The notes below the pieces were generated by a model. It searched no databases and was not told the origin of the DNA. It saw only the letters and a list, made by a program, of their open reading frames with translations. Positions 24,183 to 26,357 of a stretch of DNA of 39,172 nucleotides are shown in pieces. Position numbers and translations under genes: made by a program. The DNA is taken from NCBI GenBank assembly GCA_016177405.1, contig JACOVG010000035.1, positions 1-39,172 on the forward strand. Direction: 5' to 3'. This DNA comes from Candidatus Omnitrophota bacterium. Lineage in GTDB: Bacteria; Omnitrophota; Gorgyraeia; 1-14-0-20-64-10. How positions within the stretch are numbered: the first letter of the stretch is position 1; each line of letters starts with the position of its first letter.

Positions 24183-26357
24183 GTGAGCCACTCCCCGGAT
24201 TCTCTGGCCACGGGTCCTGCCGCCTGCGGGTACTCCCGCCGTCCGTCCTCGGCCTCCGGCCTGCGGGCGCGGCGGCGGGTCCTCCCTCCGGCGTCACCCG
24301 TGGCCGGAATTTCTCCAGTCCCCGATAGGCTTCTGAAATCGGCTCCAGCGTTCTTCGTTATCCTTAGCCTCACCCTGGGGCCAAGCCCTGCTTGGGCGCT
24401 CCGCCAAACCGGCTTGGAGGAGTCCCCCGAGGAGCGCGAGAAATTAGCCGAGGTCCTTCAAAGTCCCGCCGCGGGGCTGGAGGAGAAGGCCAAGCTGTTG
24501 ACACCGGCCCAAGGCGTTCCCGCCAAGGAAGCACTGCAAACGGTTTCAGAGTTCTTGAAGAGTTCTTACACCCTTGAGATTGCCATCCATTATTTTCATC
24601 CCCAAGAGGGGGCGCCGTGGGTTCATGAAACATTCAGCTTGATTTCATCCTGGTCTTTAACGGAGGAAGGAAGAGCTCTCATAGTTAATTACATCCTAGG
24701 CGGAGAGAAACCCCTTGACTCGGATCAGGCGATGAGCTATATGAGGGGCGCCAACCCCCAAGGGTGGCCCCCCTCCGTATCTCTTCCCCAGGCGCTTGAG
24801 CTGGCCGGCGAAAAGGCAAATTTCCGGGTGTATGTCCGCGGCGATCCTCCGAGAGGCAGGCTCCATACCAAACTTTTCGTGTTGATAGAACCCGTCTTTG
24901 ATGATCGGCTCCTAGAGCGGGCGGCTCCATTGGCTGAATTGGCACGCCGTTACCACGATCCTTCCCGGGCCAATGAACACCACGTTCCTGCCAAAAGCGA
25001 AATTGAAGGATGGATAAGGGCAAGGCGTTTCGAGCAACTTTCCAATCTTCAGGGTTGGTTAGAGGCAAGAGCCCAGACTCATCAGGACCACAAAGCCCTC
25101 GCTTTGCTCAAGGAACTTGGGATTTATCTCTCCGCCACCTTTGACCCCTCTGCCTCATACCAACGGTTTTCTCTCCTCCCCGCGGGGCTGGAGGAATGGC
25201 CCCGGGTGGTCCCCATCACGCGGGAGTATGGACGGGCACACGCCGAGGCGCTTACGGCCATGGATGCCAAAGAGGAGGTTTGGCAAGAAGAGGGCGTTTG
25301 GGCTGAAGGACGTTGGTCCATGGAGGTTCGTCCTTCCACAGGAACGCCGTTAAAAGAGCTGTTTGAGTTGAGCTTTGCTGTTGAGGGTCCTTCCGGCGAC
25401 CCCGTGGCCTACATTTACACCACCCATGGCCAGCCGGATTATCCCGTCGCCAGGAGTTTCCCAGGGATCTTCATCTTCCGGTTGAGCGTTCATAAAGACC
25501 ACAAGGGAAAGAGATTGGGTCCCTTGCTTCTTTTGGCTTCCGCTCGGGCCGCTAAAGAAAAAGGGATCGGTCCCTACGTCACCCTGGAGACGGACGAGAA
25601 AAACCAGCACGCCCGCCACGTTTACGAATCGTTGGGGTTTGAAGCAAAGGGAACCCGGGTGGACGAGAAGAAGCCGACCGTGACCTTCGTTGAGTACGCC
25701 GCACCCATTGACACAGTGATTGAAAGAGCCCAAGCGCTCGTCTCGCAGCGCTACGGCCCCGAGGCTGAACCGATTCCGGGTACGCCAGCGGGACCTCCCG
25801 GGGCGGGGCTGGAGGAGGGGGTGGCGGTGAAGGCGGTAGAGGAGCTGGAGAAGGAGGCGCCGGAGCTGGCGGCGGAGGTTCGGGCGGCCGGAAAAACCCA
25901 CGCTGTTTTGCTTCCGGACGAAGCTCTCGAAGAGGCCCTGGAGGAACTGCCGGAGGCCCTCTTTTATGGCCAGGAATCTGTTCTGGCCGGAGCGTGGGCC
26001 ATTGTGTCTGACCTCCTTACCTTCAGGGGAAGTTGGAAACTTCCCTCTAACGACCTCGACGTGTCCAACCGCTTACTCCAAGAAGCTGCCCAGCAATCCA
26101 CCCAAGGAAAGACGGTGGTGATTGCGCTCAACCCCGAGGAGCAGGCGGGGCTTAATCTGCCCAGCAATCATTCTCTCGTTCTCCTGGTCAGGCCGGCTAC
26201 TTGGCCGAGTCTGCTTTCGCAGAAGAGGGTGTTGGCCGCCTGCCTTGCCCAAACGAATAAGCTGACGGGCCTTATTCTGGATCTCACCTCCGGTACCATC
26301 CGAAAGGTCGAAATCTCCGGCAGGCAGTACTACGTTATCCTCGCCACCCAAGTGTAA
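24183..26357 (+). CDS. Large exported protein with GNAT domain and AGLEE motifs
   Basis: The 724-residue frame begins with a long basic stretch, then a hydrophobic core (APAFFVILSLTLGPSPAWA) and a likely signal-peptidase site before LRQTGLEE (residue 73). If GTG 24183 is right the signal has an unusually long N-region; GTG 24300 is an alternative with a normal one. Residues about 430-495 form a GNAT acetyltransferase core: LSVHKDHKGKRLGPLLL (acetyl-CoA loop) and HARHVYESLGFEAKG. The motif GLEE occurs at 24411-24422, and AGLEE at 24471-24485, 25182-25196 and 25803-25817, the three AGLEE copies being encoded by the same 14 bases. The C-terminal 180 residues are a mixed alpha-beta domain I cannot name. 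A GNAT domain in a protein with an apparent signal peptide is odd, since acetyl-CoA is cytoplasmic. Confidence 0.78.
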   Translation: MSHSPDSLATGPAACGYSRRPSSASGLRARRRVLPPASPVAGISPVPDRLLKSAPAFFVILSLTLGPSPAWALRQTGLEESPEEREKLAEVLQSPAAGLEEKAKLLTPAQGVPAKEALQTVSEFLKSSYTLEIAIHYFHPQEGAPWVHETFSLISSWSLTEEGRALIVNYILGGEKPLDSDQAMSYMRGANPQGWPPSVSLPQALELAGEKANFRVYVRGDPPRGRLHTKLFVLIEPVFDDRLLERAAPLAELARRYHDPSRANEHHVPAKSEIEGWIRARRFEQLSNLQGWLEARAQTHQDHKALALLKELGIYLSATFDPSASYQRFSLLPAGLEEWPRVVPITREYGRAHAEALTAMDAKEEVWQEEGVWAEGRWSMEVRPSTGTPLKELFELSFAVEGPSGDPVAYIYTTHGQPDYPVARSFPGIFIFRLSVHKDHKGKRLGPLLLLASARAAKEKGIGPYVTLETDEKNQHARHVYESLGFEAKGTRVDEKKPTVTFVEYAAPIDTVIERAQALVSQRYGPEAEPIPGTPAGPPGAGLEEGVAVKAVEELEKEAPELAAEVRAAGKTHAVLLPDEALEEALEELPEALFYGQESVLAGAWAIVSDLLTFRGSWKLPSNDLDVSNRLLQEAAQQSTQGKTVVIALNPEEQAGLNLPSNHSLVLLVRPATWPSLLSQKRVLAACLAQTNKLTGLILDLTSGTIRKVEISGRQYYVILATQV
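24206..24305 (+). other. GC-rich nested foldback at the 5' end of the AGLEE gene
   Basis: GGCCACGGGT (24206-24215) is perfectly matched by ACCCGTGGCC (24296-24305). Inside it CCCGCCG (24235-24241) matches CGGCGGG (24273-24279). The segment lies between the proposed start and the signal-peptide core and encodes a low-complexity Arg/Pro-rich stretch. It may be an RNA structure controlling translation, or an inserted repeat read through in frame. Confidence 0.45.

Follow-up and report, generated by a model that had tools for sequence, protein, structure and literature searches.

The locus analysed here raises the question of what a short motif, repeated several times along one exported protein, means in a bacterium of the phylum Omnitrophota. 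The window, that is, the whole contig of 39,172 nucleotides under analysis, encodes on its forward strand (24183..26357) the protein P0001, in which GLEE occurs four times: as TGLEE at amino acid (aa) 77 (24408..24422) and as AGLEE at aa 98 (24471..24485), aa 335 (25182..25196) and aa 542 (25803..25817). The original prediction, made from the letters of the window, had counted the same four copies and proposed that the motif marks module borders and could be a processing, sorting or linker signal of a protein family peculiar to this lineage. As suggested by our comparative sequence analysis, nearly all giant exported proteins in the taxonomic family of the window (f1) are strings of enzymes and regulators joined at a five-residue motif, and this motif is probably the junction and processing site of exported polyproteins, cut by a putative family-specific protease.

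The layout of P0001 (724 aa as called from 24183) illustrates this organisation. The core of its signal peptide (24333..24398; ..FFVILSLTLGPSPAWA, followed by LRQ), recognised by hydrophobicity, aligns with the N terminus of a contig C25 protein (MKQTLAFLLIASLALGPSPAFALRQTGLEES) in the same genome (G000), and the end of this signal peptide appears to lie close to aa 72, between PSPAWA and LRQTGLEE. The TGLEE copy follows immediately; the second copy closes a spacer of ~16 residues, which would be a short propeptide, and such paired first copies are common in relatives. An uncharacterised module 1 comes next (24486..25181, no match in the Pfam scan), and behind the third copy lies module 2 with a GNAT acetyltransferase domain (25380..25664; PF00583, aa 400-486, E 5e-11), related at 57% identity to a module in G000 C23 and at about 50% to one in contig C20 of genome G059. 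The fourth copy immediately precedes the C-terminal domain (25818..26354), which is also present in proteins of G000 C13, G059 C11 and G065 C8 (36-42% identity). Hence the placement of one copy close behind the signal peptide and of another (25803) directly before a C-terminal domain was correctly foreseen. An AlphaFold model of P0001 was too poor to be used (predicted local distance difference test score, pLDDT, 49) and was set aside. At 1..2319 the window also carries, on the same strand, the 3' part of a second protein of the motif class, truncated by the contig start and without a Pfam match, with the SGLEE (1924..1938) and AGLEE (2227..2241, near the C terminus) already noted by the original prediction and, in addition, a GGLEE (1762..1776).

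The motif is far too frequent to be attributed to chance or composition. In the genome of the window (a 1.70-Mb assembly in 35 contigs, 93% complete) the AGLEE-coding pattern GCNGGNYTNGARGAR was found 121 times, against 12 for a reversed control pattern, and in the window itself AGLEE-coding sites number 4 vs 0.15 expected. Genes were called in the window and 40 further stretches, together 685 kb with 471 open reading frames (ORFs) or ~40% of the genome; these stretches were picked mainly around motif hits, which biases shares taken from them upward, and outside them the genome-wide evidence consists of pattern counts on DNA. Gene calls and signal peptides rest on simple rules (hydrophobicity), not on dedicated predictors. 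The called ORFs hold 192 GLEE where composition predicts 11.0 (17-fold), 102 AGLEE for 1.2 expected (86-fold), 40 SGLEE for 0.6 and 28 TGLEE for 0.5; a frequency of GLEE at the level of composition was thus not observed. Near-variants in the same 685 kb showed no enrichment (observed/expected: GLDE 2/7, GLEA 11/17, GVEE 5/7, GIEE 8/4, EELGA 1/1.2). When positions were varied singly in G000, G, L, E and E each proved strict, and position -1 admitted A>S>T>G>V only, with G and V rare and R never present in 179 copies; no residue-level conservation was found in the flanks of the five residues.

Selection appears to act mainly on the protein, since the 164 [AST]GLEE copies in multi-copy proteins of the sampled stretches are encoded by 70 different 15-mers. 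The 14 bases GCGGGGCTGGAGGA, described earlier as common to three AGLEE copies of P0001, do recur at 24471, 25182 and 25803 (0.02 expected by shuffling); this DNA identity is not the essential point. With 70 distinct 15-mers and unconserved flanking DNA, a DNA repeat was also rejected as the cause of the motif, despite over-use of the codons CTG GAG GAG (CTGGAGGAG; 60% within the motif vs 33%).

The motif is restricted to one lineage, and the original prediction of a peculiarity holds at the level of the family. Across 384 genomes of Omnitrophota an excess of AGLEE was confined to family f1, nearly all others having a handful, and a phylum-wide feature was therefore rejected. Eight of nine family genomes lie above the control (AGLEE/control 121/12, 56/15, 61/12, 75/18, 33/4, 141/14, 18/4 and 30/8); the ninth, G241, has 9 AGLEE vs 17. 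In another Omnitrophota family a giant frame stays open over 39,033 aa (G018:C47, L188-L194), and [AST]GxEE was not found in the 21.7 thousand aa of it that were read. For this reason the giant frames of the phylum, as judged from these sequences, are not of one kind. A literature search found no report of a GLEE or AGLEE motif in Omnitrophota.

The carriers of the motif are large and exported. Two to 11 copies of [AST]GLEE occur in 35 proteins of the sample, whose lengths range between 400 and more than 6,000 aa (the longest gene, of about 6,145 aa, is made up of two adjoining stretches of contig C11), and at least two copies were present in 22 of the 24 sampled ORFs of at least 1,500 aa; the start of one of the two others resembles glutamate synthase, as judged from its sequence. 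Enrichment behind signal peptides, which had been proposed as a check, was pronounced: by the hydrophobicity rule 27 of 29 complete multi-copy proteins carry a signal peptide, vs 125 of 340 motif-free ORFs (Fisher 1.5e-9). The first copy stands soon after the signal peptide, typically in the form ..A[LF]R[QP]..GLEE. In many cases a second copy, 8-50 residues further on, closes a short spacer, which consists of a small helix-like stretch and then a Pro/Ala-rich part. Later copies are spaced at typical domain lengths, and only 10 internal transmembrane-like segments were counted in 77 motif proteins.

A Pfam scan of 22 motif proteins and P0001 (23 in all) revealed what lies between the copies. 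The matches include enzymes of metabolism (PfkB, GlpX-type fructose bisphosphatase (FBPase), transaldolase, phosphoglucomutase, aminotransferase), further modules such as ARMT1 phosphatases, GNAT, Fic, metallophosphatase, APH-type kinase, methyltransferases, glycosyltransferase and histidine-kinase-type ATPase, and the repeat or adaptor modules WD40, TPR and HEAT; many module stretches had no match. Unrelated modules share one chain, e.g., TPR with metallophosphatase and Fic, or ARMT1 with WD40, GNAT and HATPase. By their domain assignments many modules (PfkB, FBPase, phosphoglucomutase, transaldolase, GNAT, Fic, sigma-70, helix-turn-helix) are of the cytosol type. In the FBPase module NDPVDGTT and GEGxR are invariant across three genera; these resemble the DPxxGTT and GEGxRD stretches of GlpX-type enzymes, and catalysis may therefore be intact. 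As a separate observation, the ORF L079:5830-8835 combines a signal peptide, sigma-70 regions 2, 3 and 4 and then helix-turn-helix domains between AGLEE copies, and is apparently an exported sigma factor.

That the motif marks module borders, as had been supposed, is supported by two kinds of placement. Of 103 motif copies a single one reaches into a Pfam domain, by one residue, where random placement of the non-N-terminal copies would give 13.5 (P<5e-5), and a WD40 propeller at aa 854-1144 fills the gap between copies at 847 and 1148. Placement at random relative to domains was thus not what we found. The ends of homology between related proteins coincide with the motif as well. A C4 protein of 2,229 aa, with copies at 33, 79, 578, 1536 and 2056, matches its ortholog in G386 in blocks 1-582 and 577-1520, between which the G386 protein holds an extra module with its own copies at 607 and 994; the G385 ortholog retains only block 1-581 and a C-terminal block from 2059. 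Among 77 motif proteins from six genomes, both proteins show a motif no more than 20 aa away at 25 of 67 interior homology-block ends (0.84 expected, at most 7 in 5,000 trials), and at least one of them does at 44 of 67 (13.4 expected); the pairs are not fully independent and the margin is large.

The middle residue of the motif changes between genera, and it does so throughout a genome. The junctions of G059 read [AS]G[LQA]EE, with 20 AGQEE vs 0.04 expected, 14 AGAEE vs 0.09 and 12 AGLEE vs 0.10 (genome-wide AGxEE, 150 vs 20), and in G331 it is [AST]G[LVM]EE (AGVEE/AGMEE). The small sample from G241 follows [ASTG]G[LM]E[EAT], with [AT]G[LM]EE after the signal peptide and [ASG]GLE[AET] further on. 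At orthologous junctions before the GNAT module, P0001 has PAGLEEWP, the G000 C23 protein AAGLEEGY (a second copy in that genome) and G059 PAGAEERY. That dozens of unlinked sites have changed together implies, as far as sequence comparison can tell, that a trans-acting partner reads the motif. The G059 proteins (L131-L136, L149) were also seen to be mostly either all-L (GLEE) or all-Q/A (GQEE, GAEE; P = 0.00025), and these two dialects are perhaps two recognition systems or two destinations.

A further feature concerns the residues directly behind the motif. The sequence RRxFL is the core of the twin-arginine export signal, whose normal place is the N terminus of a protein. In 125,069 aa of motif proteins it occurs 8 times, and six of these eight sit 1-6 residues behind a motif copy (L160 aa 259, 677 and 1471; L133 aa 2548; L086 aa 946; L078 aa 77), where only ~3% of residues lie so close. 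The six come from G000, G059 and G331, a hydrophobic stretch follows in each, and one G331 protein has three junctions of this kind. Since twin-arginine signals directly follow the motif, the residue after it behaves like a protein start. TatC was found in 8 of 9 family genomes.

These observations can be combined into a mechanism, of which we infer cleavage, enzyme, membrane side and purpose. Whole proteins (enzymes, regulators, adaptors) would have become joined into one chain under a single signal peptide, with [AST]-G-x-E-E (x = L in G000) at every module border. During or after export a putative endoprotease conserved in the family would recognise the pentapeptide and cut at or beside it. 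Such cuts would first free the short propeptide that follows the signal peptide, and afterwards each module as a unit of its own. The choice left by the original prediction between processing, sorting and linking narrows towards processing, which is favoured by the dialects, by the twin-arginine signals directly behind the motif, by the coming and going of whole modules between copies, and by the preference A>S>T>G>V at position -1, which matches a small specificity pocket.

Several observations weigh against such cleavage. Neither a cleavage product nor a matching peptide or enzyme was observed. Twin-arginine signals inside the chain are hard to reconcile with a signal peptide, by which a chain is translocated unfolded; the combination is topologically puzzling, and the internal signals may be relics of captured proteins. 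The over-use of CTG GAG GAG hints at some DNA copying. A common domain with conserved internal AGLEE/GGLEE copies was noticed at the C termini of the L086, L074 and L131 proteins. The predicted fold of the C-terminal domain is Rossmann-like, of the alpha/beta type, with a pLDDT of 65 for the whole domain and about 80 for residues 63-200; comparison of the model with the PDB gave no significant match (best E 0.011) and no function. GGLEE lies there at a strand-helix turn and remains GLEE even in G059. Cleavage at copies inside this predicted folded domain is doubtful, and, according to the model, these copies may be structural or partner-binding. A matching protease, for which the original prediction had proposed a test, did not emerge from the protease search. 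S8 subtilases matched in 6 of 9 family genomes, full-length in 4, and were undetected in G065 (motif-rich, 95%-complete), G385 and G241, which leaves a subtilase unsupported as the general protease; caspase-like C14 is absent in 9 of 9; no peptidase domain was found by Pfam embedded in the 23 scanned motif proteins; and when the exported ORFs of the sampled stretches (40% of the genome) were scanned for protease signatures, only one HtrA/DegP-like and one FtsH-like protein came up. A fitting protease was thus not found among S8, C14, embedded domains and exported-ORF signatures, other families not having been searched. As an observation in its own right, the 6,145-aa motif gene of C11 is followed after 72 bp, on the same strand, by the gene of an exported S8 subtilase with a fervidolysin-type prodomain (L062:3250-5088).

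The main rival explanation is that the motif serves docking or sorting, its copies binding a scaffold, chaperone or secretion component in the manner of a dockerin-like pentapeptide, with the chains left uncut. Five strict residues without flank conservation, placed in linkers in many copies per protein and changing in concert between lineages, fit a binding motif too, and the conserved copies in the folded C-terminal domain suit binding better than cutting. We nevertheless regard docking as rather improbable: the twin-arginine signals that come right after motif copies speak for new N termini, exchange of modules exactly at the motif indicates a border function, whereas a docking motif need not mark every border, and no scaffold candidate was found. 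A structural role, in which the motif starts the next domain as a helix N-cap, draws on the resemblance of S/T/A-G-L-E-E to a helix-capping box (S/T-x-x-E) and on GLEE at helix starts in the predicted C-terminal domain. Such a cap would tolerate D for E and other hydrophobic residues, contrary to the unenriched GLDE, GIEE and GVEE of G000, and would leave the restriction to signal-peptide proteins of one family unexplained; this is very unlikely. Very unlikely, too, is a recombination or assembly seam, a scar of module shuffling without function in the protein. Gain and loss of modules at the motif and the over-used CTGGAGGAG would suit a seam, yet 70 different 15-mers among 164 copies and unconserved flanking DNA speak against it, as do the middle residue, which in G059 and G331 has changed in concert, and the invariance of the motif, inside a gap-ridden linker with indels around it (alignment A1), at orthologous junctions of genera at 52-58% identity.

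Processing of exported polyproteins, the reading we prefer, predicts new termini at AGLEE. If cleavage is true, a cellular bacterium would use a polyprotein strategy genome-wide, with a new protease that changes specificity between genera and might be a source of a specific cutting enzyme; if docking is true, the motif would reveal a new exported assembly; cutting and docking alike call for a conserved partner. Omnitrophota include predatory or parasitic members, and because of this and of the way in which cytosol-type enzymes are combined with Fic, kinase, WD40/TPR and sigma/helix-turn-helix modules, delivery of modules into another cell suggests itself, speculatively. The far-reaching version, that much of the exported proteome consists of cleavable polyproteins, dozens of giant chains that a dedicated protease, evolving fast and reading a pentapeptide code specific to each genus, would cut into units (cytosol-type enzymes, kinases, Fic, acetyltransferase, sigma factor, helix-turn-helix), and that the units are delivered together into prey or host to take over metabolism and transcription, seems to us unlikely at present.

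The direct neighbours of the motif genes look like housekeeping genes, as judged by sequence starts (purB and purL in the window), no recurrent conserved neighbours were found, and carriage by phages or conjugative elements was not seen from the neighbours, no dedicated prophage search having been run. The called start of P0001 at 24183 precedes a dispersed ~100-bp repeat (24206..24306, forward strand), and the gene therefore probably begins at GTG 24300 or further downstream, for instance immediately ahead of the signal peptide. This GC-rich repeat, directly upstream of the real start and outside the motif system, recurs at 97-99% identity at at least 16 other genome sites, mostly contig ends, and explains why the called ORF opens with ~40-50 aa that are spurious. 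Upstream of P0001, an 814-aa protein (21624-24068) has a hydrophobic N-terminal stretch, no GLEE and weak RHS-repeat and DUF4595 matches; it is the lowest-GC gene of the neighbourhood. Directly behind the tRNA genes Pro 6972, Arg 7208 and His 8470, GC falls to 0.51-0.54 at 8000-12000 vs 0.60-0.67 in the flanks; this stretch, with an ORF (9552-10649) that has no Pfam match, is possibly acquired DNA.

Among known systems, the sortase-type (LPXTG) sorting signal occurs once, at the C terminus, ahead of a transmembrane segment and a basic tail, unlike [AST]GLEE, whose copies run from N to C terminus in proteins with few internal transmembrane-like segments. The cellulosome dockerin is a duplicated calcium-binding domain of ~60 aa, unlike five residues without flank conservation, and no dockerin is among the Pfam matches. 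Motif proteins have what characterises polyproteins, several unrelated modules per chain and a conserved short sequence at their borders. Polyvalent proteins of phages and conjugative elements join 2-15 unrelated enzyme domains per chain, and it has been proposed that the chain, once delivered, is cut into its units; their authors liken them to viral polyproteins (PMC5512222). The likeness to motif proteins lies in prokaryotic chains of unrelated enzyme modules and in the presumed purpose. Polyvalent proteins are processed by an embedded peptidase, which the 23 scanned motif proteins lack; their description gives no common junction motif and, in the passages considered, no signal peptide, whereas motif proteins have both; and their genes travel on phage or conjugative elements, whereas motif genes are chromosomal among housekeeping genes (PMC5512222).

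In the light-harvesting complex (LHC) polyproteins of Euglena and dinoflagellates, decapeptide or SPLR linkers hold the cleavage site and the units are sorted to another compartment (PMC3480386). As in motif proteins, where cutting is inferred, the units are parted by a short conserved linker; LHC polyproteins differ in being eukaryotic, in their near-identical light-harvesting units and in the motif itself (PMC3480386). The Plasmodium export element (PEXEL) and its Toxoplasma counterpart (TEXEL), RxLxE or RRLAE, require arginine and are cut by eukaryotic aspartyl proteases, of which ASP5 cuts near C termini too (PMC10900883, PMC4764566). They resemble the present motif as strictly constrained pentapeptides shortly behind a signal peptide, there in effectors, and differ in that they are not a repeated module border, and in that the Omnitrophota motif never has R at position -1 and keeps G strict. 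The nearest bacterial system of processed surface proteins is that of Mycoplasma hyopneumoniae, endoproteolytically cut at a short recurring S/T-X-F-X-D/E (PMC4772806). Its motif is degenerate, and it concerns adhesin families and moonlighting proteins of another phylum without fused enzymes (PMC4772806). From the phylum itself come the giant ORFs of Omnitrophota, very long, with few annotated domains and a role described as unknown, proposed to be adhesins or cell coat (PMC10066038); motif proteins share with them the phylum and the very long ORFs. Such giant ORFs have been puzzling because most have few recognisable domains and lack a shared feature, and in the family of the window the motif offers a key to reading them: it marks the borders of units, and the units prove to be enzymes and regulators of ordinary kinds, preceded by a signal peptide.
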